A DNA stretch of 34,211 bases from Acidobacteriaceae bacterium (GTDB lineage: Bacteria > Acidobacteriota > Terriglobia > Terriglobales > Acidobacteriaceae): assembly GCA_003152695.1 (NCBI GenBank), contig PMAT01000054.1, positions 1 to 34,211 on the forward strand. Direction: 5' to 3'. The notes beneath the pieces were generated by a model. The model searched no databases, had not been told where the DNA came from, and saw nothing but the letters and a program-made list of their open reading frames with translations. Each line of letters starts with the position of its first letter. The stretch's first letter is position 1. Below are positions 4,795 through 26,208 of this stretch, in pieces. A program made the position numbers and the translations under genes.

Positions 4795-4829
4795 TCGCTA
4801 TTCGCTGTTCGCCCTTCGCTCTTCGCCAG
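4795..4829 (-). repeat. Heptanucleotide array, five TCGCNNT units
   Basis: Five consecutive 7-bp units in exact register begin TCGC (TCGCTAT, TCGCTGT, TCGCCCT, TCGCTCT, TCGCCAG). The array is inverted relative to the GCGAANA array at 5677-5711; the XRE gene lies between them. Confidence 0.85.
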
Positions 4830-5059: not shown

Positions 5060-5605
5060 TCAGCAGCCTTTGCCAGCGTCAGGCAGTGCCGCGAACCAGT
5101 CAAGGCCAAGTGCCTTGCAGATGTGGTAGAGTGCGTCAACGCAGAAGTCCCACAGGGACTTCGGATCACGGAGCAGCGCTTCGATGTCCCATCCTATAAG
5201 GTCACCGAGCTGCTCTGTGCTCAGACCACTTTCCACAACCTTCTTGGCGACCCGCGCGGAGACATCATCAAAAGTCACTGTTTGCTTGACTTCTTCCCCC
5301 TCGCGGCCGAGAAGAAGCACCCTCGGTTGCACACCTAGAATGCGCCCTAGCCCTGCGATCTTGTTAAGCGGCACAACGATGAATGCTTCGTAATCGTATG
5401 ACTCGAGATCGCAGTACGAATGTATGGTGATCCCGAGGCGACGGGCTATCTCGTTCTCGCTAAGGCCCGCTTGTAATCGCGCTTGTCGAATTCTGTCCCC
5501 CACAGAAGGCCACTGCAGCGGTTCTAAGTCATCAAGGTTTTTCGCCGACCAGTACGCCTCAAGTGCGAGTTCGGCGCGATGTCGCTCTCCAGTTGAGACG
5601 CTCAT
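5060..5605 (-). CDS. XRE-family helix-turn-helix regulator
   Basis: This 181-residue protein probably binds DNA. Residues of roughly 35-90 match a Cro/C1-type domain: VGDRIRQARLQAGLSENEIA, then RRLGITIHSYCDLES, then LGRILGVQPRVLLL. The C-terminal half has a second helix-rich unit (LSTEQLGDLIGWDIEALL..ICKALGLDW) that looks like a degenerate repeat of the same fold. The start at 5605 is supported by GGAG five nt before the ATG; the upstream frame is in repeat DNA. The gene stands alone between ndk and sucD, which are otherwise housekeeping, and is bracketed by inverted heptamer arrays. It could be an orphan antitoxin-like regulator, but no toxin partner is visible. Confidence 0.8.
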   Translation of the reverse strand: MSVSTGERHRAELALEAYWSAKNLDDLEPLQWPSVGDRIRQARLQAGLSENEIARRLGITIHSYCDLESYDYEAFIVVPLNKIAGLGRILGVQPRVLLLGREGEEVKQTVTFDDVSARVAKKVVESGLSTEQLGDLIGWDIEALLRDPKSLWDFCVDALYHICKALGLDWFAALPDAGKGC

Positions 5606-5676: not shown

Positions 5677-5711
5677 ACGAAAAGCGAATAGCGAAAGGCG
5701 AATAGCGAGCT
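5677..5711 (+). repeat. Heptanucleotide array, GCGAANA units, abutting sucD stop
   Basis: Five units in register (ACGAAAA, GCGAATA, GCGAAAG, GCGAATA, GCGAGCT) end exactly at the base before the sucD stop codon. It is the inverse of the array at 4795-4829. Confidence 0.85.
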
Positions 5712-7896: not shown

Positions 7897-7952
7897 GCAA
7901 TTGGCGATTGGCAATCAGCAATCAGCACTCAGCAATCAGCACTCAGCAATCA
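7897..7952 (+). repeat. Heptanucleotide array, eight GCAMTCA-type units
   Basis: Exactly eight 7-bp units in register: GCAATTG, GCGATTG, then GCAATCA and GCACTCA alternating. It ends 7 bp before the TGTCAT repeat. Confidence 0.9.
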
Positions 7953-7959
7953 GTTGTTG

Positions 7960-8115: not shown

Positions 8116-8185
8116 GCTGAATGCTGAGTGCTGACGGCTGAATGCTAAGCTAGTTGCTCATTACTAGTTGCTAGTTGCTAATTGC
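8116..8185. repeat. Heptanucleotide array of ten units upstream of trpD
   Basis: Ten 7-bp units in unbroken register: five GCTGANN-type, then five TAGTTGC/TAATTGC-type. It is followed by TTCTTCCC and the trpD ATG. The second half is the reverse complement of the GCAAYTA units seen at 21361 and 24244. Confidence 0.88.
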
Positions 8186-8193
8186 TTCTTCCC

Positions 8194-9243
8194 ATGCTTC
8201 TCGACGCGCTGCACAAAATCGCCAACCATCGCACTTCCCTCACCCGCGAGGAGGCGCGCGAGGTCATGTCGCAAATCCTGCGCGGGGAGGCCACCGACGC
8301 GCAGATTGCGGCGCTGCTGGTCGCCCTGCACATGAAGGGCGAGACGGTCGAGGAGATCGTCGGCTTTGCGCAGGCCATTCGCGACGAGGCCGCGCCGTTG
8401 CAAACCGAGGACGGCGAAGCGCTTGACCTCAGCGGCACCGAACGCGACGCGCTGGTGGACACCTGCGGCACCGGCGGTGACGCCAGCGGCACATTCAACA
8501 TTTCCACCGCGACGGCGCTGGCCATCGCCGGCGCTGGCGTGCGGGTTGCGAAGCATGGCAACCGCAGTATCAGCTCCAAGTGCGGCTCGGCCGACGTGAT
8601 GGAGGCGCTCGGCGTCAACATTAACCTGCCACCGGCGCGCATTGCTGCCTGCCTGCGCGAGACTGGCATCGCATTTTTGTATGCCCCGGCCATGCATTCG
8701 GCCATGAAGTATGTGCAGCCGGCGCGCCGCGAGTTGCGGTTGCGCACCGTCTTCAATCTGCTGGGACCGCTGACCAACCCGGCGCGCGCTTCGGCGCAGG
8801 TGGTCGGCGTCTATTCCGCCGACCTGGTGGAAAAGCTGGCCGAGGCGCTGAGCGAACTGGGATTGCGCCGTGCGCTGGTGGTCCACGGACGCGATGGGCT
8901 CGACGAGATCACCATCTCCGGCCCCAGCAAAGTTGCCGAAGTCCGCAACGGTCAGGTGCGCGTGTACGAAGTCACGCCGGAAGATTTTGGCTTGCAGCGC
9001 GCGCCGCTCGGCGACATCGCCGGAGGCGACGCGCAGCAAAACGCGGCCATCATCCGCGCGATTCTCGATGGCGAGCGCTCCTGCCGCCGCGATGTAGTTC
9101 TGCTGAACGCCGCCGCAGCGCTGGTCGCCGCCGGACACGCCGACCACATCGGCGACGCCGTGTCCCTGGCTGCCTATGCTATCGATAGCGGCCACGCGCG
9201 CCAGCGGCTGCAATTGCTGGTGGAGTTTACGCGGAGTGAATAG
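8194..9243 (+). CDS. trpD: Anthranilate phosphoribosyltransferase
   Basis: The enzyme joins anthranilate to PRPP in the second step of tryptophan synthesis. The protein has an N-terminal helical domain ([27 protein letters not shown]) and the PRPP-binding segment DTCGTGGD at residues 89-96, followed by [29 protein letters not shown] and [11 protein letters not shown] are further family signatures. I chose the ATG at 8194 (349 residues) over an in-frame TTG 12 bp upstream because the latter lies inside a heptamer array; neither has a good ribosome site. No other trp gene is next to it. The stop codon TAG is the first three bases of a TAGTGGA array. Confidence 0.96.
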
Positions 9244-12867: not shown

Positions 12868-14001
12868 CTGGCTACCAACGTAAAACGCGATTACTACGAA
12901 GTGCTGAGCGTCAGCCGCACGGCCAACGACCAGGAAATCAAGAGCGCCTATCGCAAGCTCGCGCTGCAGCACCATCCTGACCGCAATCCCGACGATCCAG
13001 CGTCCGAGGAGCGCTTCAAGGAGTGCAGCGAAGCCTACGCGATCCTCGCCGACAGCGAAAAGCGCGCGCGCTACGACCGCTTCGGTCACGCGGGAGTTTC
13101 CAGCGGCCCGGGCGGCAATGGCGGATTCGACGCCACGGTGTTCAACGATTTCCACGACATCTTCGGCGACCTCTTCGGATTTGGCGATATGTTCGGCGGC
13201 CAGGCGGGACGCAGCCGTTCGCGCGCCCAGCGCGGCGCCGATCTGCGCGAGGACCTCACTCTCGAGTTCGAGGAAGCCGTGTTTGGCGTCACCAAGCAAG
13301 TGCAGGTGCGGCGGCTGGAAGAGTGCGACCTGTGCAAAGGCAGCGGCGCGGCGCCGGGCAAAGCGCCCATCACCTGCACTACCTGCGGCGGGCGCGGGCA
13401 GATGCGTTATCAACAGGGCTTCTTCTCCATATCGCGCACCTGCAGCACCTGCCAAGGCGCGGGCAAACTGATCGTCGATCCCTGCTCCCAGTGCAGGGGC
13501 CATGGCCGCGTCACGCGCCAGCGCACGGTCACGGTCAAAGTTCCCGCGGGAGTCGAAGAAGGCGCGCGCATGCTGTACTCGGGCGAGGGCGAGGCCGGCG
13601 TTTACGGTGGACCGTCCGGCGACCTCTACGTGGTGCTGCACGCCAGGGAGCACGCGTTCTTCGAGCGTGAAGGCAAACACCTGTATTGCGCCGTGCCAAT
13701 TTCTTTCGCGCAGGCGGCGCTGGGCACCGAGATCACCGTCCCTACGCTCGATGGTGAATGTGTCGTGAAAATTCCCGAGGGCACGCAGCCCGGGACCACG
13801 TTCCGGGTGAAGAACAAAGGTGTGCCAGTGCTCAACGGTCACGGGCGCGGCGATTTGCACGTCGAAGTCAAAGTGCATACGCCGTCGAAACTCAGCAAGC
13901 GGCAGCGCGAACTCTTGCAGGAGTTGCAGAGCACCACCTCGGTGGAGAACAAGCCCGTCAGCCGCTCGCTGCTGAACAAGATGAAGGATATGTTTCAGTA
14001 G
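12868..14001 (+). CDS. dnaJ: Chaperone protein DnaJ, apparent CTG start
   Basis: DnaJ delivers clients to DnaK and stimulates its ATPase. All four regions are present: J domain with HPD at residues 36-38, a G/F linker (GGNGGFDATVF, FGFGDMFGG), four CxxCxGxG zinc repeats between residues 153 and about 213 (CDLCKGSG, CTTCGGRG, CSTCQGAG, CSQCRGHG), and the C-terminal substrate domains. The first canonical start codon in frame is GTG at 12901, but this would cut off KRDYYEVL, the conserved beginning of helix I. The only sensible start upstream is CTG at 12868 (reading ATNVKRDYYEVL after Met), 9 nt after AAGG; a stop at 12859 closes the frame further up. The 377-residue length then matches the family. 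Confidence 0.95.
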   Translation: MATNVKRDYYEVLSVSRTANDQEIKSAYRKLALQHHPDRNPDDPASEERFKECSEAYAILADSEKRARYDRFGHAGVSSGPGGNGGFDATVFNDFHDIFGDLFGFGDMFGGQAGRSRSRAQRGADLREDLTLEFEEAVFGVTKQVQVRRLEECDLCKGSGAAPGKAPITCTTCGGRGQMRYQQGFFSISRTCSTCQGAGKLIVDPCSQCRGHGRVTRQRTVTVKVPAGVEEGARMLYSGEGEAGVYGGPSGDLYVVLHAREHAFFEREGKHLYCAVPISFAQAALGTEITVPTLDGECVVKIPEGTQPGTTFRVKNKGVPVLNGHGRGDLHVEVKVHTPSKLSKRQRELLQELQSTTSVENKPVSRSLLNKMKDMFQ

Positions 14002-14009
14002 CGGGGAGA

Positions 14010-14065
14010 TCGCTGTTCGCCTTTCGCTGTTCGCCTTTCGCGTTTTGCTTTTTGCGTTTCGCTCA
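14010..14065 (-). repeat. Heptanucleotide array, eight TCGCNNT/TTGCNTT units
   Basis: Eight units in register (TCGCTGT and TCGCCTT alternating, then TCGCGTT, TTGCTTT, TTGCGTT, TCGCTCA) begin 8 bp after the dnaJ stop. It is inverted relative to the second half of the array at 14104-14180. Confidence 0.9.
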
Positions 14066-14103
14066 TGAAGTGCCGCCGCTGCGCGGCTTCGCTGTTTGCT
14101 AAC

Positions 14104-14180
14104 AGCTAAAAGTTAAGAGCTAAAAGCCAGGGGCCGGAGACCGAAGCGAAAGGCGAAGAGCGAATAGCGAAAAGCGCTTC
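14104..14180 (+). repeat. Heptanucleotide array of eleven units upstream of rsmE
   Basis: Eleven 7-bp steps in unbroken register: AGCTAAA, AGTTAAG, AGCTAAA, three transitional units, then GCGAAAG, GCGAAGA, GCGAATA, GCGAAAA, GCGCTTC. The rsmE ATG follows after three C residues. It pairs as an inverted repeat with 14010-14065. Confidence 0.88.
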
Positions 14181-14183
14181 CCC

Positions 14184-14978
14184 ATGACCCGACGCCGCTG
14201 GATTGCCGACGAGTTTTCCGGTGATCGCGCTGTCTTGACCGGCGCGCACGCCGCACATTTGTCGCGCACCTTGCGCGCGCGCGTCGGCCAACATTTCGAC
14301 ATCGCCTGCGGTGATCAGCTACGGCGTGGCGTGGTGGCCAGCGTCAGCGACGAGCGCGTGGAGTTTGCGTTGGGCGAGGAAGTCACGGCCCGCGAGGTTG
14401 TGCCCATCACCCTGTTGCTCGCCGTCTTCAAATTCGATCGCATGGAGTGGGCGCTCGAGAAATGCACGGAGCTGAACGTCACCACGATCGTCCCTGTGAT
14501 TGCGCGGCGCACGGAAAAGCACCTTGCCCTTGCGGCGGACAAGCGCGTCGAGCGCTGGCGGAGGATCGCTCGCGAGGCGGCCGAGCAGTCGCGCCGCATC
14601 GCACCACCCGAGATCGCCGCCCCGGTGAAGCTGCAGGAAGCGCTCGCCAACTTCCACGACTCCGCTGTCATCCCGAGCGAGGGCTTTAGTCCGAGCAGCG
14701 GGACCCGGGTACATCCGGTTTGCGATCTGCGAATCGTTCTGGCAGAAACCGGACCGGAAGCCACGCTCAGCGAAGTGCTGCGCGCTCGCGACAATGTGAC
14801 CTCGCTGGCGCTCGCCGTCGGTCCTGAAGGCGGCTGGACCACGGATGAGTTGCGGCTCTTCGAGTTGTCGCAATGGCTTGCTGCGTCACTCGGCGATACC
14901 ATTCTCCGCGCCGAGACCGCCGCGATTGCGGCAGTAGCGGTGGCCAGGTCGGAGTTGGAATCAGCAACTAGCGTTTAG
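14184..14978 (+). CDS. rsmE: 16S rRNA (uracil-1498-N3)-methyltransferase RsmE
   Basis: RsmE methylates N3 of U1498 of 16S rRNA using SAM. This 264-residue SPOUT enzyme shows an N-terminal PUA-like domain ([14 protein letters not shown]), the [13 protein letters not shown] segment, and the knotted SAM site ([14 protein letters not shown] and [13 protein letters not shown]). Residues of roughly 161-176 ([12 protein letters not shown] region) are not typical of the family and are encoded by a TGTCAT-type repeat inserted in frame. Start is ATG 14184 right after a heptamer array. It follows dnaJ in the same direction, a common neighbourhood. Its stop codon lies in another heptamer array. Confidence 0.94.
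14665..14709 (+). repeat. TGTCAT-family fragment inside rsmE
   Basis: The bases TGTCATCCCGAGCGAGGG followed by a GGACCC word match the opening of intergenic copies. Its length keeps the rsmE frame open and inserts about 15 residues between the two halves of the SPOUT domain. Confidence 0.65.
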
Positions 14979-14984
14979 CACTCT
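14964..14984 (+). repeat. Short heptamer array spanning rsmE stop
   Basis: GCAACTA, GCGTTTA, GCACTCT are in register. The rsmE stop TAG (14976-14978) bridges the second and third units, so the final residues ATSV are array-encoded. Confidence 0.65.
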
Positions 14985-14993
14985 GGCGACTGC

Positions 14994-15105
14994 TGTCATC
15001 CTGAGCGAGTCGAAGGACCCCTATAGCAACCACGAACCTCGGCTTAGTATAGGGGTGCTTCGACTCGCGTTCGCTAAAACCGGCGAACGCTCGCTCAGCA
15101 TGACA
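14994..15105. repeat. TGTCAT-family long imperfect palindrome
   Basis: It starts TGTCATCCTGAGCGAG and ends CTCGCTCAGCATGACA, with internal CCCCTAT/ATAGGGG and GAGTCGAAG/CTTCGACTC pairing. The 112-bp unit could fold into one long arm. It sits between rsmE and cysK. Confidence 0.8.
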
Positions 15106-15109
15106 CCTC

Positions 15110-15151
15110 AATGTTTAATATTTTGGGTTCAATGTTTAATGTTTTGCGTTC
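15110..15151 (+). repeat. Two 21-bp direct repeats (three heptamers each)
   Basis: AATGTTT, AATRTTT, TGSGTTC repeated twice with two mismatches. The 21-bp unit equals three 7-bp steps, in line with the other arrays. Confidence 0.7.
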
Positions 15152-15252
15152 CGAATAAAATGTTGTTGTTGCCTGTAGCTGGTTCTTTACTCGCCTCCAC
15201 TGAATCAAACCGTATATCCACTGCCTCAGGTCAAACTTTTTGGGAGATCGCT

Positions 15253-16218
<966 letters not shown>

Positions 16219-16221
16219 CAA

Positions 16222-16926
16222 ATGTTTGCATCCATGCGTGAGGACATTGCCGCAGTCAAGGACCGTGATCCCGCGGCCAAGTCCTCGCTTGAAATCATCC
16301 TGCTCTACTCCGGGCTGCACGCGCTGTGGGGCTTCCGCTTCCACCACTGGCTGTGGATTCGCGGCTGGCAATTCCCTGCCCGGGCCCTGTCGCAAGTTGC
16401 CCGGCTCATCACCGGCGTCGAGATCCATCCTGGCGCGCAAATTGGCCGGCGCTTTTTCATCGACCACGGAATGGGCGTGGTCATCGGCGAGACCACCATC
16501 GTGGGCGACGATGTCACGTTGTACCAGGGCGTAACGCTGGGCGGCACCGGCAAGGAACACGGCAAGCGTCATCCCACCATCGGCAACAATGTCGTGGTCG
16601 GCTCAGGCGCGAAAATACTGGGCAATATTACCATCGGCGAAAATTGCCGCATCGGCGCCGGCTCGGTGGTGCTGCGCGATGTGCCCGACAACTCAACCGT
16701 AGTTGGCGTGCCCGGCCACATTGTTCTCCGCGAAGGCCAGCGGGTGGTAATCATCGATCCCAAGCAGATCAACGACCCTCTGTCGGAGGCGCTGGCAGCA
16801 GTGGCCAACGAAGTCAAACTGCTGAAGGACGAGGTGTGCCGCCTGCAAGGTCGCCAGCCGTCCCCAGCCCTGGCCAAGGGAACCGACAAGCTGCAGCAGG
16901 TGATCGAGATGGATTATCAGATATAG
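16222..16926 (+). CDS. cysE: Serine O-acetyltransferase
   Basis: CysE acetylates serine to give the substrate of CysK. The 234-residue protein has a shorter N-terminal helical domain than the enterobacterial enzyme, then the left-handed beta-helix of hexapeptide repeats ([47 protein letters not shown]). The active-site segment [13 protein letters not shown] is intact. A tail of about 50 residues ends in isoleucine (MDYQI), the residue that in known cysteine synthase complexes inserts into the CysK active site. Start is ATG 16222, 3 nt after cysK; ATG 16234 is an alternative. Confidence 0.96.
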
Positions 16927-16928
16927 AA

Positions 16929-16943
16929 GCGGCGCTTCGCCGC
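16929..16943. terminator. Possible weak terminator hairpin after cysE
   Basis: GCGGCG and CGCCGC pair around a CTT loop just past the cysE stop. There is no T tract, so intrinsic termination is uncertain. Confidence 0.3.
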
Positions 16944-17048
16944 GGATGCTCGCCGAGCTTCGAAGACGAGGAGCCAGGGCCCCGTCCAGGTCCCGTCATG
17001 CGGTCTGAACTAGTTGACTGTAGCTGAATTTGTGTCATGCTGTGGGAC

Positions 17049-17207
17049 ATGAAAAAGAAGAAAGTCGATCCGCTGGCGTACGCCGCCAAAGTGCGTAAGG
17101 ACGCGGATCGGATGCAAGCCATGAGCGAGGCCTTCGGCTCCCACGGAAAATTGGCCCCCGAGAAAACCAACCGCAAAGCGACCCGGAAAAACAAGAGGAC
17201 GGAATGA
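17049..17207 (+). CDS. Small lysine-rich hypothetical protein
   Basis: A 52-residue open frame begins MKKKKVDPLAYAAKV and ends KATRKNKRTE. It is very basic, with Lys/Arg clusters at both ends and a central helix (DADRMQAMSEAFG). The ribosome site is poor (GGGAC next to the ATG). The composition suggests a nucleic-acid or ribosome-associated peptide, but this is only inferred. No family recognised. Confidence 0.45.
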   Translation: MKKKKVDPLAYAAKVRKDADRMQAMSEAFGSHGKLAPEKTNRKATRKNKRTE

Positions 17208-17347
17208 CCCCGTCGGCAGCTTCCCTAACGGTTCGTCTCCGCAGTAATTCACTCTCCTGAAAATCGCTGGAACCGCGCTGTTTTTCCCGGGCTAGAGATC
17301 GCTGTCTAAGGAACGTCCCCCAGGGTGTGTGGATTTCTCTCCGCAGT

Positions 17348-17455
17348 TGTCATTACGAGCGAAGCGAGGAATCTGCTTTCGGTCGCGCTGGAACGACCGC
17401 CGTGGAAAAAGCAGGTCCTTCACGGCCTGCAGGCCGTTTTCGTCTTGTCAACCGC
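17348..17455 (+). repeat. TGTCAT-family repeat overlapping the 3' end of tetR
   Basis: TGTCATTACGAGCGAAGCGAGGAATCTGC and a downstream AAAGCAGGTCCTTCACGGCC word match the 24317 copy. It contains the stop and encodes about the last 30 residues of the TetR product in antisense. Confidence 0.65.
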
Positions 17456-18099
17456 AGAGGGTGGCGGCCGTTGTTCGCCGCGCCCTTGAGCACCAGGCGG
17501 CAGACATCCGCGATGTACTCCTCGCTCAGTTGCTCGTGACGAATGAGAAAGCGCATATAAATGGCGCCGTAAAGCACGTCGAGCAGCAGATCGAGATCCA
17601 GGTTGCGGGGGAGTTCGCCGCGTTCCATTCCCCGTCGAAGAGTCTGATAGGCTTCCTGCCGCCGGGGCCGGAGAAAACGCTCGCGAAAGGCCTGGATGAG
17701 ACCGGGGTCGGACTGGCCGCCGGCGATCACCGCTGACACGATGCGGCCGCGCCGCGAACGCAGGATCGCCAGGAACTGATTCATCTGCCGGCTCATGTCC
17801 TTATAGACCGAGCCGCTGTCGGGGAAATGCAATTCCTCTTCCGCGCTGGAGGCGAAGGCGTCCACCACCAGGGCCCCTTTGTCGGGCCACCAGCGATATA
17901 CGGTCGCCTTGCCCACGCCGGCGTGGGCGGCGATGGCCTCAATCGAGAGTTCCGCGAAACCGGTGCGCTGCAGCAGCCGGCTGGTGCTGCGCAAGATGGC
18001 TTGGCGCGCCTGTTCGCTGCGCGGCCGCCCCGGCAGGCGTTTGCCGCCATTGTTGTTTTCCGGCGACCGTTTTTCAGCAGCGGAAGGGGTTTGCGCCAT
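17353..18099 (-). CDS. TetR-family repressor, likely of the efflux operon
   Basis: The 248-residue protein has a TetR/AcrR helix-turn-helix at about residues 30-75 (RQAILRSTSRLLQRTGFAEL, SIEAIAAHAGVGKATVYRWW, PDKGALVVDAF). The ligand domain resembles the TetR_C_11 type. It is divergent from an RND efflux operon starting 115 nt away, so it most likely represses that operon and itself. The last 40 or so residues (RKRPAGREGPAF..ADSSLRS) are beyond the normal end and come from a dispersed repeat. I use ATG 18099; ATG 18114 is equally possible. Confidence 0.92.
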   Translation of the reverse strand: MAQTPSAAEKRSPENNNGGKRLPGRPRSEQARQAILRSTSRLLQRTGFAELSIEAIAAHAGVGKATVYRWWPDKGALVVDAFASSAEEELHFPDSGSVYKDMSRQMNQFLAILRSRRGRIVSAVIAGGQSDPGLIQAFRERFLRPRRQEAYQTLRRGMERGELPRNLDLDLLLDVLYGAIYMRFLIRHEQLSEEYIADVCRLVLKGAANNGRHPLRLTRRKRPAGREGPAFSTAVVPARPKADSSLRS

Positions 18100-18127
18100 G
18101 CCCCACGATAGCATATATTTGAATCCA

Positions 18128-18140
18128 ATACGTAGCGTAT
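18128..18140. promoter_or_regulatory. Candidate TetR operator
   Basis: ATACG-TAG-CGTAT is a perfect inverted repeat between the divergent tetR and efflux genes. AATCC/GGATT arms at 18122-18126 and 18147-18151 lie around it but are off-centre. Assignment as the TetR site is inference from position and symmetry. Confidence 0.55.
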
Positions 18141-18213
18141 CGAATCGGATTTCTTATGATTCCGGCTTTGGCGCCTACGGGCGACATGCTCTGATTGGAG
18201 TCCTACCCGACCG

Positions 18214-21200
18214 ATGTGGATTGTTGCCCTAGCGCTCCGGCGTCCTTATACCTTCGTGGTCATGGCGCTGGTGCTGATTATCCTGACGCCCATCGTGGTG
18301 CTGCGCACGCCGGTCGATATTTTTCCCGACATCAACATCCCAGTAATCAGTGTGGTGTGGAACTTTGGGGGGTTTGCCCCCTCGGACATGGCCGACCGCA
18401 TTGTCACCAACTCCGAGCGTGGCATCAACATCACGGTCAACGACATCGAGCACATCGAGTCGCAGTCGGTCAGCGGCGTGGGCGTGATTAAGATCTTTTT
18501 CCGGCCGCAGGCCAATATTCAGACGGCGCTGGCCCAGGTGACCGCGATGGTGCAGACCACGGTGCGCGGCCTGCCGCCGGGGACCACGCCGCCGTTGGTC
18601 ATCTCCTACTCGGCATCGTCCACGCCGGTAGTGCAGCTCGGCCTCAGCAGCAAGACCATTCCCGAGCAAGTGCTGTTCGACTTGGGTCAGAACTTTCTGC
18701 GCAACCAACTGGCCACCGTCCACGGCGCGGCCACGCCCTATCCCTACGGCGGCAAGATACGGCAGGTGCAGGTCGATCTTGACCTGCCGCGGCTGCAGGC
18801 CAACGGTCTTTCTCCCAACGACATTGTTAATGCCATCAACACGCAAAATCTGATTACCCCCAGCGGCACTGCCAAGATCGGGTCGCTGGAATATCAGGTC
18901 GAGATGAACAGCAGTCCGCAGACCATCGCGGAGTTGAACGATCTGCCGGTCAAGACGGTGAACGGCTCGACCATCTACATGCGCGATGTGGCCCACATCC
19001 GCGACGGCTTCGCGCCGCAAACCAACATCGTGCGCCAGGATGGAGTCCGCGGCACCCTGATGTCGATCTATAAGATCGGCGGCGCGTCCACCCTCAGTAT
19101 CGTGAGCGCAGTGAAGGGTGTGCTGCCCATTGCCGCGCAGTCCCTGCCCCGAGACATCACCATCAAGCCGCTGTTCGATCAGTCGCTGTTCGTGCGCGCT
19201 TCCATCAACGGAGTGTTGAAGGAGGCGGTCACCGCCGCTGCCCTCACCGCCGTCATGATCCTGCTGTTTCTGGGAGACTGGCGTCCCACCATCGTCATTT
19301 CGATTTCCATTCCGCTCTCCATTTTTGTTTCCGTGCTTCTGCTGAGCGCGCTGGGCGAAACCATCAACATCATGACGTTGGGAGGTCTGGCCCTGGCGGT
19401 CGGCATCCTGGTGGACGACGCCACGGTCGAGATCGAGAACATCGAGCGCAACCTTGCCCAGGGCAAGGAGATGAGACAGGCCATCCTGGATGGCGCTTCG
19501 CAGATCGCGGTGCCGGCGTTCGTCTCCACACTGTGCATCTGCATCGTGTTCGTGCCCATGTTCTTCCTCACCGGCGTGGCCCGCTACCTGTTCGTGCCGC
19601 TGGCCGAAGCCGTGGTGTTCGCGATGCTGGCATCCTACTTCCTGTCACGCACCCTGATTCCGACCCTGGTCATGTACATCATGCGTGGGCACGAGCATCG
19701 CGCCGCCGGGCCCAAAACAATCTTCGGCCGCTATCAACGCGGGTTCGAGCGCGGGTTTGACAACTTTCGCAACGGCTACTATCAGCTCCTGGAAACCACC
19801 CTCGAGCATCGCAAGCTGTTTGCCGCCTGCTTTCTCGCGTTCTGCGTGCTCTCGATGGGCCTGGTGTTCTTCCTCGGCGAAGACTTCTTCCCTAACGTTG
19901 ACGCTGGCACGATGCGCCTGCACATGCGTGCTCGCCCCGGCCTGCGGGTGGAAGAAACGGCGCGGCTGACCGATGAGGTGGAAGCCTATCTGCGGCAGCA
20001 GATTCCCAAGGACGAGCTGGTCACCATCCTGGACAATATCGGGCTGCCGTATTCGGGAATCAATTTGTCGTACAGCAACTCCGGCGTGGTGGGAACCAGC
20101 GATGCCGAGATCCTGGTGGGCCTGAACGCCGAACATCATCACGCGACCCAGGGCTACATCCGGAAATTGCGCGAGGAGTTGCCGCGACAGTTCCCCGGCG
20201 TGGAGTTCTTCTTTCAGCCGGCCGACATCGTGACCCAGATTCTGAACTTCGGATTGCCGGCGCCGATCGACATCCAGGTCACCGGTCAGGACATGCAAGG
20301 CAACTACGTCATTGCGCAACAAATCGCCAATCGCCTGCGTCACGTGAACGGCACCGCCGACGTGCATGTGCAACAGGTGCTAAGTTTGCCGACGCTGCAT
20401 CTGCAGATTGACCGCAACAAGACCACGCAAGTGGGAATGAATGCGCGCGACGTGGCGCAAACCGTGCTGGTCGCGTTGAGCGGCAGCTTCCAGACCGCGC
20501 CTAACTTCTGGTTGAATCCCAAGAACGGCGTGACCTACCAGGTAGCGGTCCAGTCCCCGCAATACCGCATGACCTCGGTGCAGGACCTGATGAACATGCC
20601 GGTAAACGATCCCGGCGTGCAGAGCTCGCAGGTGCTGGGCAACCTGGTGCAGTTGACCCCCACGGCCCGGCCGCTGGTGGTCTCGCATTACAATGTGCAA
20701 CCGGTGATCGACGTGTACGCCAGCACCCAGGACCGTGATCTGGGCGCGGTGGCCAAGGACACGATGAAAGTCTTGCAGCCGTTCCAGCAGCATCTGCCGC
20801 GAGGCACGCAAATCATCGTTCGCGGACAAGTGGTGACCATGCAGTCGTCGTTCATCGGCTTGGGCATCGGACTGCTGATGGCGATTTCGCTGGTGTACTT
20901 CCTGATCGTGGTGAATTTTCAGTCCTGGCTCGATCCGTTCATCATCATCACCGCCCTGCCGGGAGCGCTGGCCGGCATTTGCTGGATCCTGCTGCTAACC
21001 CATACCACGTTGAGCGTGCCGTCACTGACCGGCGCGGTAATGTGCATGGGCGTGGCCACCGCCAACTCCATTCTGCTGGTTTCGTTTGCGCGCGAGCGCA
21101 TGAACCTCGGCATACCGGCGGCCCAATCCGCGCTGGAAGCGGGCTACACTCGAATCCGTCCGGTGCTGATGACCGCTCTGGCCATGATCATCGGCATGGT

Positions 21201-21375
21201 GCCGATGTCGTTGGGGTTGGGCGAAGGCGGCGAACAGAACGCGCCGCTGGGACGCGCGGTGATCGGCGGGCTGTTGTTCGCCACCGTGGCGACTCTGTTT
21301 TTTGTGCCATCTATTTTTGCCATGATTCACGGCCATCGCGAGGCAAAGCGGGCGAGAGAAGCAGTTAGCAATTAG
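18214..21375 (+). CDS. RND efflux transporter permease (AcrB/HAE1-like)
   Basis: This 1053-residue inner-membrane pump exports drugs or other small molecules using the proton gradient. It has the usual twelve-helix layout: first helix at residues of roughly 12-30, then the porter domain, a TM4 motif GGLALAVGILVDDATVEIEN with the Asp pair 401-402, and C-terminal helices ending AMIIGMVPMSLGLGEGGEQN. The TM10 lysine of AcrB (K940) is replaced by Ala950 in GVATANSILLVSFARE, so proton relay differs from AcrB. GGAG lies 13 nt before the ATG. The adaptor and outer-membrane channel follow. Its last residues AVSN and its stop codon are inside a heptamer array. Confidence 0.96.
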   Translation: MWIVALALRRPYTFVVMALVLIILTPIVVLRTPVDIFPDINIPVISVVWNFGGFAPSDMADRIVTNSERGINITVNDIEHIESQSVSGVGVIKIFFRPQANIQTALAQVTAMVQTTVRGLPPGTTPPLVISYSASSTPVVQLGLSSKTIPEQVLFDLGQNFLRNQLATVHGAATPYPYGGKIRQVQVDLDLPRLQANGLSPNDIVNAINTQNLITPSGTAKIGSLEYQVEMNSSPQTIAELNDLPVKTVNGSTIYMRDVAHIRDGFAPQTNIVRQDGVRGTLMSIYKIGGASTLSIVSAVKGVLPIAAQSLPRDITIKPLFDQSLFVRASINGVLKEAVTAAALTAVMILLFLGDWRPTIVISISIPLSIFVSVLLLSALGETINIMTLGGLALAVGILVDDATVEIENIERNLAQGKEMRQAILDGASQIAVPAFVSTLCICIVFVPMFFLTGVARYLFVPLAEAVVFAMLASYFLSRTLIPTLVMYIMRGHEHRAAGPKTIFGRYQRGFERGFDNFRNGYYQLLETTLEHRKLFAACFLAFCVLSMGLVFFLGEDFFPNVDAGTMRLHMRARPGLRVEETARLTDEVEAYLRQQIPKDELVTILDNIGLPYSGINLSYSNSGVVGTSDAEILVGLNAEHHHATQGYIRKLREELPRQFPGVEFFFQPADIVTQILNFGLPAPIDIQVTGQDMQGNYVIAQQIANRLRHVNGTADVHVQQVLSLPTLHLQIDRNKTTQVGMNARDVAQTVLVALSGSFQTAPNFWLNPKNGVTYQVAVQSPQYRMTSVQDLMNMPVNDPGVQSSQVLGNLVQLTPTARPLVVSHYNVQPVIDVYASTQDRDLGAVAKDTMKVLQPFQQHLPRGTQIIVRGQVVTMQSSFIGLGIGLLMAISLVYFLIVVNFQSWLDPFIIITALPGALAGICWILLLTHTTLSVPSLTGAVMCMGVATANSILLVSFARERMNLGIPAAQSALEAGYTRIRPVLMTALAMIIGMVPMSLGLGEGGEQNAPLGRAVIGGLLFATVATLFFVPSIFAMIHGHREAKRAREAVSN

Positions 21376-21402
21376 CAACTAGCAATTAGCAACTAGCAAC
21401 TA
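21361..21402 (+). repeat. Heptanucleotide array, six GCARYTA units spanning permease stop
   Basis: Six units in register (GCAGTTA, GCAATTA, GCAACTA, GCAATTA, GCAACTA, GCAACTA). The permease stop TAG is at 21373-21375, inside it. The reverse-complement array at 21513-21540 completes an inverted pair. Confidence 0.92.
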
Positions 21403-21512
21403 GTATTTCAGCAGCGTTGAGCACGCAGTTTGCACCTAATGATTAGCAACATCGAGACCAACTATTTCGCAGGGATGAAAGCAGCCAGGCGCCGTCAGTT
21501 AGCGGTTTTTAC

Positions 21513-21540
21513 TAATTGCTAACTGCCAATTGCTAACTGC
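21513..21540 (-). repeat. Heptanucleotide array, four YAAYTGC units before adaptor gene
   Basis: TAATTGC, TAACTGC, CAATTGC, TAACTGC in register, ending 14 bp before the adaptor ATG. It is the reverse complement of the 21361 array, with the gap between them containing no gene. Confidence 0.88.
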
Positions 21541-21554
21541 CAGGATTTATACCT

Positions 21555-22781
21555 ATGGATTCGCCTTCAAATCGAGCTGACGTTAGTGAACCCGAACATC
21601 ACGCGGCCGAAATCACGGCGCCGCCCAAGCTTCCTCCGGCGACGCCGCGCAAGGCGCTGTTCATGATCGCTGTGGTGGTGCTGGCGCTGGTGGCCGGCGC
21701 CGTAATCACCATGCTCATGCGCATCCACAGCAGCCGCGTGCTTGCCCAGGAAACCGAACGGGAATCGGTTCCCACGGTGGCCGTACTTCATCCCATCTCG
21801 GAGAAACCCGACGAAGAACTGGTGTTGCCGGGCTCGCTGCTGGCGTTCGAGGAGTCTCCCATCTATGCCCGCACCAACGGCTACCTGCTGCACTGGTACA
21901 AAGACATTGGCAGCCGGGTGACCAAGGGCGAACTGCTAGCCGACATCGACACTCCGGAAGTGGACCAGGAATTGATGCAGGCCCGGGCGACGCGCCAGCA
22001 GATCTTGGCGCAGATGGACCTGGCCAAAATCAATTCCGACCGTTATCTCAGCCTGCGCACCACCGATTCGGTTTCGCAGCAGGAGGCCGATCAGCAGGCC
22101 AGCGGCTATCAACAGGCCAAGGCCAACCTGGACGCAAATGACGCCAACGTTCGCCGTCTGGAAGAACTGGAGGCGTTCAAACACGTGTACGCGCCCTTCA
22201 GCGGAGTGCTGACCAAGCGCAACGTCGATCCCGGCGCGCTGATCAACGCCGGCGGCACCGGCAAGGAACTGTTCGACATGGCCCGCGTCGATCCCCTGCG
22301 CGTGTACGTCAGCGTCCCGCAAAGTTACGCGCCCGCCATCAAGAACGGGATGGAAGCCTGGGTAACGCTGCAGGAGTTGCCGGGACAGAAGTTCAGAGGA
22401 ACGGTGGCGCGCACCGCCGAATCCATTGATCCCACTACGCGCACGTTGCTGACGGAAGTGGACGTGCCCAACAAAGACGGACGCCTGCTGCCAGGCTCCT
22501 TCGGCGAAGTTCATTTCCGGCCGGGCATCAACGGGCAGAAAATCACGCTGCCGGTCAACACCATGCTCTTCCGCCAGGAAGGGCCGCGCGTGGCGGTTGT
22601 GGGGAGCGATAACAAGGTGCAACTGCGTCCCATCACCATCGGCCGCGATTACGGCTCGACGCTGGAAATACTGGGCGGCGTTGACGTCGGGGACCAGGTG
22701 GTCATCAATCCCGCCGATTCGCTGGAAGAAGGTCAGCAGGTCAACATCGCTCCCGCCAACCAGGGAGGCAAAACGTCATGA
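21555..22781 (+). CDS. RND periplasmic adaptor (membrane fusion protein)
   Basis: The 408-residue adaptor links the pump to the outer-membrane channel. It has a cytoplasmic Pro-rich start, one membrane helix at about residues 34-56 (ALFMIAVVVLALVAGAVITM), a lipoyl-type segment (YARTNGYLLHWYKDIGSRVTKGELLADIDTPE), a coiled-coil hairpin (QELMQARATRQQILAQMDLA, QQEADQQASGYQQAKANLDA) and the beta-barrel part with SPFSGVLTKR-like sequence (YAPFSGVLTKRNVDPGALI). Its end overlaps the next gene by 4 nt. The anchor is a helix rather than a lipobox. Confidence 0.95.
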   Translation: MDSPSNRADVSEPEHHAAEITAPPKLPPATPRKALFMIAVVVLALVAGAVITMLMRIHSSRVLAQETERESVPTVAVLHPISEKPDEELVLPGSLLAFEESPIYARTNGYLLHWYKDIGSRVTKGELLADIDTPEVDQELMQARATRQQILAQMDLAKINSDRYLSLRTTDSVSQQEADQQASGYQQAKANLDANDANVRRLEELEAFKHVYAPFSGVLTKRNVDPGALINAGGTGKELFDMARVDPLRVYVSVPQSYAPAIKNGMEAWVTLQELPGQKFRGTVARTAESIDPTTRTLLTEVDVPNKDGRLLPGSFGEVHFRPGINGQKITLPVNTMLFRQEGPRVAVVGSDNKVQLRPITIGRDYGSTLEILGGVDVGDQVVINPADSLEEGQQVNIAPANQGGKTS

Positions 22782-24241
22782 AGTGGCTGACCCTGACGGT
22801 CGGTGTCGCCGTCAGCGTTTTGCTGATGGGATGCGCGGTGGGACCGAAATATCAGCGACCGCCGGTCCAGGCCCCCGAGGCCTACAAGACGCAAGGCCCG
22901 TGGCGTGTGGCCGCGCCGAAAGATTCGCTTCCCAAGGGCGCCTGGTGGGAGATCTTCAACGACGCCGAACTGAACAACTACGAGCAGCAACTGCTGAAGG
23001 CGAATCAGTCGCTGGTCGCCGCGCAAGACCGCCTGAACCAGGCGCGCGCGCTGGCGCGGGTAGCCGCGGCCGGACTTTTCCCGCAAGCCAGCACCGATCC
23101 CAACGCATCGCGCAACCGCTACTCGGGAAATCGGCCGCAAGTCGTCACCCTCGGGCGGCCGCTCACCCAGAGCACCTACGAAATTCCTTTTCTGCTCAGT
23201 TACGAACCCGACCTCTTTGGAAAATACCGCCGAACTCTGCAAGCCTCGAATGCGACTCTGCAAGCCACGGCGGCGGACATGTACAACGTCAACCTGGTGC
23301 TGACTGCCGAACTGGCCGCCGACTACTTCAGCTTGCGCGAGCTTGACGCCGAAACTCAGGTCGTGCAGGAATCGGTTGACATTCAGCAGAAGGGTTTGCA
23401 GCTGGTGCAGAACCGGCATACCGGCGGAGTCGCCTCCGGACTCGACTTGGCCCAGCAGCAGACCCTGCTTGATTCCACGGTCGCGCAACTGAGCCTGGTG
23501 CAGCAGCAGCGCGTGCAGTACGAACACGCCATCGCGGTGCTGACCGGAAATGCGGCTTCCACTTTCAGCGTGCCGGTGGCCCCGTTGCACACGACACCGC
23601 CTCCCATTCCGCTGGGCGTGCCTTCTGACCTGCTGGAACGCAGGCCCGATGTGGCGACCGCCGAGCGCAACATGGCGTACGAAAACGCCGAAGTCGGCGT
23701 TGCCACCGCGGCGTTTTATCCGCAACTCACTCTCTTCGGGGGCGGTGGCTTTCAAAGCACCGATATCACCAACCTGATCAGCGCGCCCAGCGCCATCTGG
23801 TCGCTGGGTGGCGACTTGTTGCAGCCGATCTTTGAAGGCGGACGCAATCGCGCCAACCTGGCGGCCACCAAAGCGGCCTACGGCGAATCGGTCGCCAATT
23901 ACCGCGAGGCGGTGCTGACCGCATTCCAGCAGGTGGAAGATGGACTGTCGGGACTGAACGCGCTTTCGCAGGCGACGACCAGCCAGAACGCCGCCGTCTC
24001 CGACGCGCGCCGTGCCCTGCAGATCGCCAACAACCGCTACGTCGGCGGCGTGACCTCTTACCTCGACGTCATCACCGCTCAGTCGGCGTTGCTGACCAAC
24101 GAACGTCTCGCGACCCAGCTACTCGGGCAGGAGATGGTGACTTCCGTCTATCTGGTGAAGGCCGTGGGCGGAGGTTGGGATGCCTCGCAGATTCAGAATG
24201 AGCAAGTGCGGCCGAAGGCGATCCAGGCGGTGCAGCAGTAG
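22778..24241 (+). CDS. Outer-membrane efflux lipoprotein (NodT/TolC family)
   Basis: The 487-residue channel subunit has a lipoprotein signal with lipobox LLMGC, so Cys19 should be acylated. Two related OEP domains follow: the first with LVAAQDRLNQARALARVAAAGLFPQ, the second with LLERRPDVATAERNMAYENA and AAFYPQLTLFGGGGF, the classic NodT signature. It ends with YVGGVTSYLDVITAQSALL. ATG overlaps the adaptor stop (ATGA) and GGGAGG lies 9 nt upstream. It completes the tripartite efflux operon 18214-24241. A heptamer array starts 2 bp after the stop. Confidence 0.95.
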   Translation: MKWLTLTVGVAVSVLLMGCAVGPKYQRPPVQAPEAYKTQGPWRVAAPKDSLPKGAWWEIFNDAELNNYEQQLLKANQSLVAAQDRLNQARALARVAAAGLFPQASTDPNASRNRYSGNRPQVVTLGRPLTQSTYEIPFLLSYEPDLFGKYRRTLQASNATLQATAADMYNVNLVLTAELAADYFSLRELDAETQVVQESVDIQQKGLQLVQNRHTGGVASGLDLAQQQTLLDSTVAQLSLVQQQRVQYEHAIAVLTGNAASTFSVPVAPLHTTPPPIPLGVPSDLLERRPDVATAERNMAYENAEVGVATAAFYPQLTLFGGGGFQSTDITNLISAPSAIWSLGGDLLQPIFEGGRNRANLAATKAAYGESVANYREAVLTAFQQVEDGLSGLNALSQATTSQNAAVSDARRALQIANNRYVGGVTSYLDVITAQSALLTNERLATQLLGQEMVTSVYLVKAVGGGWDASQIQNEQVRPKAIQAVQQ

Positions 24242-24243
24242 AA

Positions 24244-24299
24244 GCAGTTAGCAGTTAGCAACTAGCAATTAGCAACTAACAATTAGCAGTTAGCAACCG
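24244..24299 (+). repeat. Heptanucleotide array, eight GCARYTA units
   Basis: Eight units in register: GCAGTTA twice, then GCAACTA, GCAATTA, GCAACTA, ACAATTA, GCAGTTA, GCAACCG. It starts two bases after the outer-membrane gene stop and is the same unit type as at 21361. Confidence 0.92.
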
Positions 24300-24316
24300 C
24301 CTCGCTAGTTTTGAAT

Positions 24317-24464
24317 TGTCATCACGAGCGGGCGAACCGGGGTCCCCAACAAGCGCCGGGTTTGCGCTTGTTGGGGTGAAGTTCAGGCCGTGAGGGATCT
24401 GCTTTTCCCTCAGCAGTCATTACAGCGCTCATAAAAGCAGATTCCTCGCTGCGCTCGTAATGAC
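24317..24464. repeat. TGTCAT-family long repeat with covarying hairpin
   Basis: TGTCATCACGAGCG opens and CGCTCGTAATGAC closes the element as inverted ends. Inside, stem 24344-24356 pairs perfectly with 24364-24376 around loop CGGGTTT. Compared with the 7960 copy, two stem pairs have changed on both sides. Confidence 0.85.
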
Positions 24465-24592
24465 CACTCCAAAGACGAATCGCTCCGGCCGCCGAAGTCG
24501 TTGACCTCAGCGGCTGAAGCGATTTCTTGCTCCCTTGGGACTCGAAGCCGGCCGAGAGAGTATTCCCGTTACACCAGACCTGGGCAGAGTCC

Positions 24593-25057
24593 CTACTCTT
24601 TGTCGTAGACCGCGACGGTCGTGACCTTTTGGCCCTTCGCGTTAGTCCCGGCCGAGGTGACGGTACGGCTTTTGCCATCGGCCGCCACGACAATGCGACT
24701 GGTACTAACGATCTTGCCACCTTTCTTGCTGGTGATCTCCATTGTGTGCGCATTAATCTGCTTGTACGCACGTTCGTCAACCCCCGCATCGCCAGTGACG
24801 GGGTAGAATTTGCCGTCGTACTTGCCCGTCCACTCGATCTGCAAGGACTTACCGTCAGCGGTCATGCCGTCCAGCGCGACTTTCACCTGGTCGCCCGCCG
24901 CCTCGTAAACAACCTTCTGGTTTTTCGTCGCTCCGGGAGCGAATTTCGATTTGGCCTCGTTCAGTTTCCAGGTGCCCATATTGACATCGCTGGCGAAGCA
25001 CACCGCCGCTGCCACAAAGCACAGCGCCATGGTCATTGCAATCGTTCTGGTTTTCAT
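24593..25057 (-). CDS. Small secreted protein, function unknown
   Basis: The 154-residue protein has an N-terminal signal peptide (MKTRTIAMTMALCFVAAAVCFA) with likely cleavage after CFA. The mature part is rich in beta-strand-like segments (MGTWKLNEAKSKFAPG; QIEWTGKYDGKFYPVTGD; RTVTSAGTNAKGQKVTTVAV), suggesting a small beta-barrel or lipocalin-like fold; I cannot name the family. The start is well fixed by AGGAG six nt before the ATG at 25057. It lies downstream of another small secreted protein in the same direction, but a repeat-filled gap separates them. Confidence 0.82.
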   Translation of the reverse strand: MKTRTIAMTMALCFVAAAVCFASDVNMGTWKLNEAKSKFAPGATKNQKVVYEAAGDQVKVALDGMTADGKSLQIEWTGKYDGKFYPVTGDAGVDERAYKQINAHTMEITSKKGGKIVSTSRIVVAADGKSRTVTSAGTNAKGQKVTTVAVYDKE

Positions 25058-25076
25058 GGTTTCTCCTGATTGAAAA

Positions 25077-25132
25077 GCAACTAGCAATTAGTAATTAGCA
25101 ACTAGCGATTCGTACTCAGCAATTAGCAGTAG
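25077..25132 (+). repeat. Heptanucleotide array, eight units
   Basis: GCAACTA, GCAATTA, GTAATTA, GCAACTA, GCGATTC, GTACTCA, GCAATTA, GCAGTAG in register. It forms an inverted pair with 25163-25197. Confidence 0.88.
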
Positions 25133-25162
25133 TTAAGCCGCGCCTGGATGGTAATTCTGCGG

Positions 25163-25197
25163 CTTTAGCTAACTGCTAATTGCTAGTCGCTAGTTGC
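25163..25197 (-). repeat. Heptanucleotide array, five units inverted to 25077
   Basis: CTTTAGC, TAACTGC, TAATTGC, TAGTCGC, TAGTTGC, then TTCTTCC and the stop of the next gene. The terminal word TTCTTCC also ends the array before trpD at 8186. Confidence 0.88.
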
Positions 25198-25204
25198 TTC
25201 TTCC

Positions 25205-25966
25205 CTACTTACCCGGCAGATAGCTCAATTCCGGGTGAAATTGGATGATCTCGCTCGTCTCATTTTCGACGGAGCGATCGATCCGATCGACGATGGAATC
25301 CGCCTCGGCCTGCCCAAAAGCCTCCTTCAGCATGTCGCGGAAAGGCTTCACGTCGGGTTTCTCCTCGAAGTCGGCCCAGCTGCTACGCGGCAGCAGGAGG
25401 ACATAAGTTCCGGTGCGACCGCCACTCGCCAGCGTGTACCATTCGAAATTGACTGGCCACTTGGTCTTCTGGGCGGCGTCGTAGATCCGGGAAATGGCGC
25501 TGCGAAAATCCGACCCTTTGCCGTAGCGCACATGGAAGGTGACGACCTCGTCGAACTTGGGAGCCATGCCGGAACTCGGAGGATTGCTGACCTTCGGCAT
25601 CCCCTCGTAGTACATAGCGGTCACCGACTCCACGTAATTGCCCACCACCTTCTGATATTCCTCCAGGTCGGCCTGGTCAGGAATGGGCGGCTTATCAAAA
25701 TCGGACCAGTGTTGATTGACGCGGCCTACGATGTAGGTCCCAGTGTCCGGTCCGGTGAGGGTCTCCCACACCAGTAGAGGTTGGGGGTCATTCTGTTGCT
25801 TGTGCCAGGCTGCTTTCTGTTTGCGCCCGTTCTCATATTGCGTCACCATGCCGTTCTTGGGCCTTTGAAACTCCAGTGCGGCAACGGTACCTGGTTTCTC
25901 CTGCGCGACCACCGAAAATGCGAACAACACGACAGCAAAAGCTGCCAACAGCTTCTTGGTTCTCAT
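25205..25966 (-). CDS. Secreted protein, two-domain repeat, function unknown
   Basis: The 253-residue product starts MRTKKLLAAFAVVLFAFSVVAQ, a clear signal peptide. The mature part appears to contain two related halves, each with a tyrosine/threonine strand and a SDF or ADF turn (GTYIVGRVNQHWSDFDKPP; GTYVLLLPRSSWADFEEKP), resembling a duplicated alpha/beta dimeric-barrel-type unit. GGAGG precedes the ATG at 25966 by five to six nt, fixing the start. I cannot assign function. It is convergent with nothing; the flavoenzyme gene diverges upstream. Confidence 0.84.
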   Translation of the reverse strand: MRTKKLLAAFAVVLFAFSVVAQEKPGTVAALEFQRPKNGMVTQYENGRKQKAAWHKQQNDPQPLLVWETLTGPDTGTYIVGRVNQHWSDFDKPPIPDQADLEEYQKVVGNYVESVTAMYYEGMPKVSNPPSSGMAPKFDEVVTFHVRYGKGSDFRSAISRIYDAAQKTKWPVNFEWYTLASGGRTGTYVLLLPRSSWADFEEKPDVKPFRDMLKEAFGQAEADSIVDRIDRSVENETSEIIQFHPELSYLPGK

Positions 25967-26208
25967 CTGTCCTCCAATTTTTTTCACATGGTTGAAGTTG
26001 AATTCGGTAAAGCGTACGGGGCCCGTTACTCCGGAACGTCTATGAGCACTGGCGGCACGGACGGCCGCTCAACTGCCCTGGGTAAGCTGCAATTCGCAAT
26101 TTTATTTTGTATTGGGATATGCGGGCATTTTACACCAGTGCGGCGGACGGGACCGAAAATTCCGACACTGTCCCGACGAAGCGCGCCCGGTGCTCTATCA
26201 TGGCGCCT

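Follow-up and report, generated by a model that had tools for sequence, protein, structure and literature searches.

The array units of the window

The window, i.e., the whole stretch of 34,211 nucleotides analyzed here, is a contig (C115) of the 4.5-Mb draft genome of an Acidobacteriaceae bacterium (G000; 99.4% complete). In it, the gap between an AcrB-type gene and an HlyD-type gene contains an array of heptamers at each edge, the right one being the inverted counterpart of the left one. Other arrays follow a dnaJ-type gene or surround an ORF that encodes an HTH_31-type protein (Table 1). Using a single score cut-off, 12 period-7 arrays were detected in the window and none at any other period from 2 to 13, while periods 14, 21 and 28 gave 10, 9 and 2 arrays, respectively, at the cut-off used for period 7.

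Table 1. Arms, middles and associated features of the array units in the window.
Feature	Position	Strand	Remarks
Left arm, TTCGCTN family	4795..4826	-	Array detection and pair scoring
Cargo ORF between arms 4795 and 5678, 181-aa HTH_31-type protein	5060..5605	-	PF13560, E 4e-07; coordinates derived from the ORF end at 5060
Right arm, GCGAAAN family	5678..5708	+	Array detection and pair scoring
Left arm, GCAATCA/GCAATTG heptamers	7897..7953	+	Array detection and pair scoring
Right arm, GCTGAAT/GCTGAGT heptamers	8116..8146	-	8116-8141 in pair scoring
Second right-hand array, GCTAGTT family	8149..8186	-	Array detection
Left arm, TTCGCTG/TTCGCCT family	14010..14062	-	8 bp after dnaJ-type gene
Extra GCTAACA-type array between arms, not the partner of 14010	14098..14126	+	Array detection
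Right arm, GCGAAAA family, true partner of 14010-14062	14144..14176	+	Scored as part of 14098-14176
Left arm, AGCAAYT heptamers	21360..21403	+	Holds stop codon of upstream AcrB-type gene (18214-21375)
Middle (loop)	21404..21508	.	Same-locus homologues in G002, G003 and G008
Right arm, AATTGCT/AACTGCC heptamers	21509..21542	-	12 bp 5' of HlyD-type gene start at 21555; 21509-21540 in pair scoring, 21514-21542 in array detection
Unpaired AGCARTT array	24243..24296	+	Left edge of its gap; no inverted partner nearby
Left arm, AGCAAYT family	25076..25128	+	25076-25106 in pair scoring
Right arm, GCTAATT family	25168..25198	-	Array detection and pair scoring

The preliminary description of this DNA had proposed five inverted pairs in the window, and four of them were recovered to within a few bases. 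Their inverted alignment scores were 22 (21360-21403 with 21509-21540) and 18.5 (25076-25106 with 25168-25198, 7897-7953 with 8116-8141, and 4795-4826 with 5678-5708, the arms of this last pair lying 851 bp apart in one called gap), and their direct scores were 2-6. The fifth pairing, of 14010 with 14104, had to be corrected: 14098-14126 consists of a different heptamer, and the inverted partner of the TTCGCTG array at 14010-14062 is the GCGAAAA array at 14144-14176.

Long palindromes of a dispersed kind, among them the TGTCATCCTGAGCG...CGCTCAGGATGACA type, are also present in the window at 7954-8115, 14940-15170 and 24296-24560. Such palindromes are often found inside or beside array units, and the genome encodes no Y1 transposase to move them. 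At 15108-15151, a 21-base repeat of a different, AT-rich kind (TCAATGTTTAATATTTTGCGT) adjoins a palindrome.

Neighbouring arrays match as inverted pairs

All the sequences compared are metagenome-assembled drafts, and the nearest named relatives in one protein-based scan were peatland Acidobacteriaceae MAGs; G006, G008, G002 and G003 correspond to palsa_357, palsa_254, palsa_354 and bog_382, respectively. The array statistics cover 1,155,275 bases of G000 (about a quarter of the genome) and 969,700 bases of its congener G006, with genes called by a simple codon-score script (77-79% coding). The array pattern AGCAAYTAGCAAYTAGC has 30 + 27 occurrences in G000, where the pattern read backwards has none, and it is present in 12 of 41 genomes, comprising 9/9 of the genus (G000 included) and 3/32 others. 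At a score of 10, G000 yielded 120 period-7 arrays; any other period between 4 and 13 gave 1-32.

Neighbouring arrays 20-400 bp apart were aligned in both orientations, taking a score of at least 14 as a match. In G000, 19 of 26 such pairs matched in inverted orientation and one in direct orientation, against a background of 9.75% and 8%, respectively, for random array pairs; the inverted score was the higher one in 20 pairs and the lower one in 6. At larger distances, inverted and direct matches numbered 1 and 1 of 6 pairs (400-800 bp), 1 and 0 of 12 (800-1500 bp), 4 and 1 of 18 (1500-3000 bp), and 0 and 1 of 37 (>3000 bp). G006, with 95 arrays, gave 13 inverted and one direct match among 24 neighbours at 20-400 bp. 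The corresponding figures were 5 and 1 in G008 (n = 11), 6 and 0 in G003 (n = 9), 5 and 0 in G002 (n = 7), and 1 and 0 in G001 (n = 1), and the stretch of G012, which belongs to another genus, contained no such pair. Pooling G000, G001, G002, G003, G008, G012 and a smaller G006 set, 40/61 pairs were inverted and 3/61 direct, counts that are not fully independent because the stretches of the relatives are often mutually orthologous.

The pairing first noticed in the window is therefore borne out beyond chance (19 vs. 1 in G000, 13 vs. 1 in G006), and the contrary outcome named beforehand, i.e., that array orientations are independent within one gap, did not occur. At the score used, 7 of the 26 pairs of G000 and 11 of the 24 pairs of G006 had no inverted match, and the arms within one pair are not exact mirror copies.

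Arms of a pair agree in family and polarity

The arrays fall into several heptamer families, such as AGCAAYT, AGCAYTT, GCGAANN, AGTTTCN, AGTGGNT, CAGTTGY and others. Within a gap, the 5' arm type (AGC-, AGT-, AGTTTC-) occupies the left edge and the reverse complement of that type the right one; in the GCGAA family the sign is reversed, but just as fixed. Since an inverted pair reads the same on either strand, polarity amounts to one choice per family. This rule, including the opposite sign of GCGAA, was read off G000 and then applied unaltered to G006. Counting the arrays located at most 40 bp from a called gene end (20 arrays of G000 and 12 of G006 lie farther away and were left out), it was obeyed by 81/87 and 68/72 arrays, respectively, at both starts and stops. 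The six exceptions of G000 were all counted, and only one, in C100 near 128393, was judged true on reading; of the rest, C89 28580 is marked '?', C89 198080 precedes a thiS-like gene that the calls had missed, C128 66540 and C125 near 3409 are AGC units that were misread, and the array at C100 113689 is composite. By reading, three of the four exceptions of G006, likewise all counted, are of AGGGG/CCCCT type or mixed, and one is palindromic (AGCTG).

Both arms were assigned to one family in 15/26 pairs of G000, with a permuted mean of 3.1 and none of 20,000 permutations as high; an alternative count of 16/26 includes one pair with both arms unassigned. Even within the AGC superfamily, arms resemble their own partner more than the arms of other pairs, the mean match being 19.25 within and 16.27 between pairs for 16 pairs from several genomes (p 0.005), and 20.39 and 15.91 for the 9 pairs of G000 (p 0.003). 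As judged from these sequence comparisons, the arms share both family and polarity. The family itself can differ between species: in the gap at C8 10222, G000 has a TCAGCAC/GAGTGCTG pair and G006 an AGCAACT/AGTTGCT pair.

A fixed polarity at gene ends could also arise boundary by boundary, if arrays formed separately before starts and after stops as translation or sequence signals and the pairs only seemed inverted. Single arrays do obey the polarity too: TTGCTAA precedes 16 starts and its complement 3, and TTAGCAA follows 21 stops and its complement 4; in addition, the TAACTGA arrays of Beggiatoaceae are described in the accessible text of PMC4679880 as lying mostly just 5' of starts. However, such signals predict neither the shared family in both arms, nor pairs within genes, nor the joint absence of both arms, and we consider this explanation highly improbable. 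Translation signals alone were rejected as an explanation: an SD-like motif was found in 7/24 genes with an array at the start vs. 327/783 others, a weak difference that rests on simple gene calls. Regarding their location, some arms lie far from gene ends, as in C8 22752-22912 (419 and 213 bp from the edges), and others hug gene ends even in gaps of 382-1173 bp, an arrangement that fits short original gaps only if the middle arrived with the unit.

Units differ between orthologous sites

The full 21360-21542 unit is found in the AcrB-HlyD gap of G000, G002, G003 and G008, with homologous middles (86-91% identity) and the left arm is 44, 52, 60 and 121 bp long in four species. The gap of G006 has 22 bp, 17 of which are a stub of the left-arm array, and no period-7 array was seen at this locus in the deeper relatives G001, G007 and G012. 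When the flanks were placed in a tree with these three genomes as the root, G006 branched within the filled ones (supports 0.88-0.94), so that the loss of the unit in G006 is the simplest reading of its absence. A similar stub occurs in G000 near 21.5 kb of C8, where G002, G006 and G008 have pairs.

We have examined 21 units of G000 across the relatives; the two flanks were available for 13 of them in one or more of the relatives' stretches, and for 12 in G006. By reading, the 12 sites of G006 contain a pair in five cases (one with a worn right arm), neither arm in four, a remnant in two and a loop-less mini-palindrome in one. In C1 of G006, at the site matching 19185-19313 of C36 in G000, CTCAGCATTCAG is directly followed by CTGAGTGCTG, the two short arms being joined without a middle, as if a middle had been inserted at, or deleted from, the tip of a hairpin. 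Gaps of relatives that lack the whole paired unit, which the preliminary description had suggested looking for, do exist. No target-site duplication was visible by eye in the filled/empty comparisons, although between species old ones could have been lost.

The gene mnmG has two in-frame insert positions (8180-8400 and 9440-9745 of L033, a stretch of C120 in G000). Both sites are hypervariable, with heptamer arms and palindromic repeats, and their content is unlike between most species read; in one loop of mnmG, the in-frame units differ from species to species. Site 1 was compared in 11 genomes (14 rows, three genomes appearing twice): G006 and G008 carry AGTTTC/GAAACT pairs there, and G005 a GTTGTC/GACAACC pair; G000, G001, G002, G003 and G013 show mixtures with palindromic repeats or single arms, G014 (another genus) has a CCGGCTT array, and G012 and G023 have no array. 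Every row has a stop-free frame; the one printed for G006 differs from the mnmG frame, which is open too. At site 2 (11 rows, 9 genomes), G000 has an AGTGG/CCACT pair, and G006 and G008 have AGTTTC/GAAACT pairs; the G003 row contains 2 stops in its best frame, which may reflect a copy-number change breaking the gene or an assembly error. The inserts within mnmG imply that the units are not gene-end signals only.

In the draft genomes, species differ at orthologous gaps and at positions inside one gene: certain ones have a unit, and others lack it, retain a remnant or carry a different one. With such gains, losses and swaps between close relatives, the units of this soil bacterium resemble a rapidly changing type of DNA insertion more than random stutter. 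The idea that the arrays are arms of larger hairpin units, and not random slippage, is upheld by the shared family, the joint folding and the whole-unit presence or absence, with the reservation that slippage may contribute, the arm length ranging from 44 to 121 bp.

The arms fold together, but a role as terminators is not well supported

We have folded 38 of 40 units, namely those with middles of up to 250 nt, which had been chosen for inverted similarity, and compared each one with a control in which the right arm was flipped. The real unit folded better in 38/38 cases (mean -60.9 vs. -37.3 kcal/mol), and the fold of the 21360-21542 unit proposed in the preliminary description gave z values of -4.2 as RNA and -3.8 as DNA. 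The smallest middle among 52 matched units has 20 bp. Elsewhere these genomes contain 14-bp inverted repeats with shorter loops (0-9 bp in 9 cases and 10-19 bp in 2), and thus, the 20-bp minimum may not mean hairpin cleavage. A unit is best read as a heptamer array on the 5' side, a middle of at least 20 bp that is mostly unique, and the reverse-complement array on the 3' side.

The strong predicted RNA stems would also fit elements acting at the RNA level, with hairpins under selection because they end transcription, stabilise mRNAs or serve as RNase III sites. In agreement with this, 13 of the 18 classed units are in co-directional gaps (7 ++ and 6 --; 4 are divergent, -+, and 1 is convergent, +-), 19 units having been tried, one of them unplaceable (C71 44425), and the matched units C89 198080 and C120 49653 having been left out. 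In addition, a terminator-like hit at 21491-21506, followed by a T run, lies within the middle of the 21360-21542 unit, and another one at 24285-24301 overlaps the array at 24243. However, co-directional gaps are the commonest class anyway (406/629 gaps of at least 20 bp), units occur in four divergent gaps and within mnmG, and they are missing from sister species. A consensus terminator scan of positions 14000-26000 gave 17 hits vs. 11.6 +/- 3.9 in shuffled sequences, and an Rfam search of the window returned no match. Intrinsic terminators have a GC-rich stem and then a T run, after stops, and the arms are not GC-rich. The terminator role hinted at in the preliminary description is accordingly not well supported, the T-run hit inside the 21360 unit being the point in its favor. 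The units in divergent gaps and inside a gene make it unlikely that a role at the transcript level maintains them as a class, and we regard RNA-level elements as a quite unlikely explanation.

Middles and cargo genes

The middle of a unit can carry other repeats or a small gene. The gap orthologous to 14003-14182 of the window contains in G006 (L164 2608-3563) a toxin-antitoxin-like DUF433/DUF5615 gene pair, and in G000 only the arms. By eye, a DUF433-like piece lies between the arrays of the orthologous gap in G002. The S23-type four-helix-bundle family PF05635 has four matches in G000 (L231, L232, L233 and L234; one is a 35-residue fragment), all of them (4/4) at most 150 bp from an array and 2/4 between matching inverted arms. 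Among 813 called genes, 119 (14.6%) have an array at either end and 18 (2.2%) at both ends; since PF05635 was searched after one case had been seen, 3/3 is the fairer count. The stretches of G006 contain two S23-like genes with arrays nearby, neither of them bracketed.

The middle at 21404-21508 has no second copy beyond its own locus in 11 genomes, the next hit having an E value of 0.036. When 1.155 Mb were compared, 25 of 35 between-array stretches had no second copy at E 1e-3, a search that would miss the shortest ones, and the other 10 contain partial repeats that occur elsewhere, several of the CATCCTGAGCG palindrome type. The middle as a dispersed element is unsupported for the one middle and for these 25 stretches. 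Phage records gave no match to the gap.

The cargo genes, the presence or absence of units, the different units at one site, the inverted arms of short tandem repeats around unrelated middles, and the position of PF05635 genes (4/4 near arrays and 2 bracketed, against the background given above) would be accounted for by non-autonomous foldback-type transposons, with the arrays as terminal inverted repeats and a transposase acting in trans to cut and paste the unit with its contents. Against this possibility are the locus-bound middle and the 25/35 single-copy stretches, together with the lack of visible target-site duplications in the filled/empty comparisons. The Y1 transposase (PF01797), the only transposase family searched, is absent from the 99.4% complete genome, with positive controls in 5/14 genomes, and mobilisation of the RAYT/IS200 type (REP/BIME) was rejected on this basis. 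Transposition of this kind appears unlikely.

The unique middles are also what could be expected from the healing of a double-strand break in which a templated polymerase adds one and the same heptamer to both 3' ends, in a telomere-like way or by copying another array, and the ends are rejoined around filler DNA. The same heptamer running outward from both gene-side 3' ends would produce the observed polarity, and in the mnmG of G005 the flanking codons are replaced with no visible target duplication. On the other side, this analysis identified no enzyme or template RNA, and neither of the two reverse transcriptase genes found has an array in its locus of 3.5-3.7 kb, so that a reverse transcriptase link was rejected. 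Break healing seems very unlikely.

A model of fold-back insertions

We give about even chances to the reading that the arrays of each inverted pair are the arms of a single fold-back (hairpin) insertion, formed and changed at the DNA level. In such a process, which would act on DNA, slippage would alter arm length in 7-nt steps, and strand folding would allow one arm to template the other, so that both arms would keep a single family. Cleavage of the hairpin or template switching would delete the unit or swap its middle for filler DNA. The frequent position of arms right at gene ends would follow from short original gaps and from the loss of most insertions within genes. Hairpin formation and cleavage at palindromes have been described in Escherichia coli (PMC4245961 and PMC3315005); in our analysis no polymerase, nuclease or recombinase could be tied to the units.

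A bolder version, in which the units form a class of bacterial foldback elements whose arms actively capture and move DNA among gene gaps and protein loops, seems quite improbable; were it true, S23/four-helix-bundle proteins might take part in the process, the 23S rRNA intervening sequences would be a special case of the class, and the captured DNA would include filler, palindromes, and toxin-antitoxin-like and S23-type genes.

Relation to known repeats and significance

We file the units as a variant of the inverted pairs of Xanthomonas that works like a foldback insertion. The accessible text of PMC4692102 describes GGGAATC heptamer arrays that are mostly intergenic, lie near one neighbouring ORF (mean 28 nt) and are generally unlinked to known mobile elements; close pairs on opposite strands number 70 in Xcc and 75 in Xac and were noted as able to form stem-loops, and Xac shares the context of 83% of the Xcc repeats, with 90% lying between the same ORFs. 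The units described here are likewise period-7 arrays lying close together in opposite orientation, mostly intergenic and near genes. In contrast to the single G-rich, quadruplex-forming family that this text presents as largely stable between two species, there are here many families without a GGGAATC-type unit, and the pair was kept at 5/12 G006 sites (by reading). Also unlike what is described there are the fast turnover, the middles with genes, the different units at one site and the in-frame insertions in mnmG.

The TAACTGA arrays of Beggiatoaceae, some cyanobacteria and Bacteroidetes are period-7, mostly intergenic and near start codons according to the parts of PMC4679880 that are accessible, which report for the Maribeggiatoa genome direct, largely start-sided arrays with one inverted case in 170 sets. 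The related heptamer TAACTGC occurs in our genomes, but the arrays described here are found at stops and starts alike, with the orientation set by the side of the gap. Cyanobacterial heptanucleotide arrays are named STRR, and they are similar to ours in having several heptamer families per genome. The heptanucleotides of Calothrix are mentioned in the accessible text of PMC4692102.

As the accessible portions of PMC3573991 and PMC4079207 present them, the eukaryotic foldback transposons Galileo and Tetris resemble the units in their inverted arms of tandem repeats, variable arm length and variable or missing middle. However, these transposons are eukaryotic, with arms mostly of hundreds of bp and target-site duplications, features of which none was shown here; Galileo has a known transposase, and none was assigned here, PF01797 being the only family searched, and absent. 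Since neither target duplication nor transposase was found, we do not claim membership in the foldback transposons. The 23S rRNA intervening sequences with an S23 protein, as treated in the accessible text of PMC4990558, are similar in having a PF05635-type gene inside an insertion, as in the 2/4 matches between inverted arms. The units described here differ from them in being located between or in protein genes, in having arms made of heptamer arrays and in mostly lacking an S23-type gene. A literature search found no published description of the many-family, cargo-bearing, fast-turnover variant.

The units would offer a system in bacteria where, inside a single genus, repeat insertions able to form hairpins appear and disappear, carry genes, and differ in family with both arms concerted. 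The orthologous filled and empty sites make the origin of heptamer arrays and of long intergenic hairpins testable, and the inserts of mnmG indicate that heptamer units can contribute in-frame protein segments.
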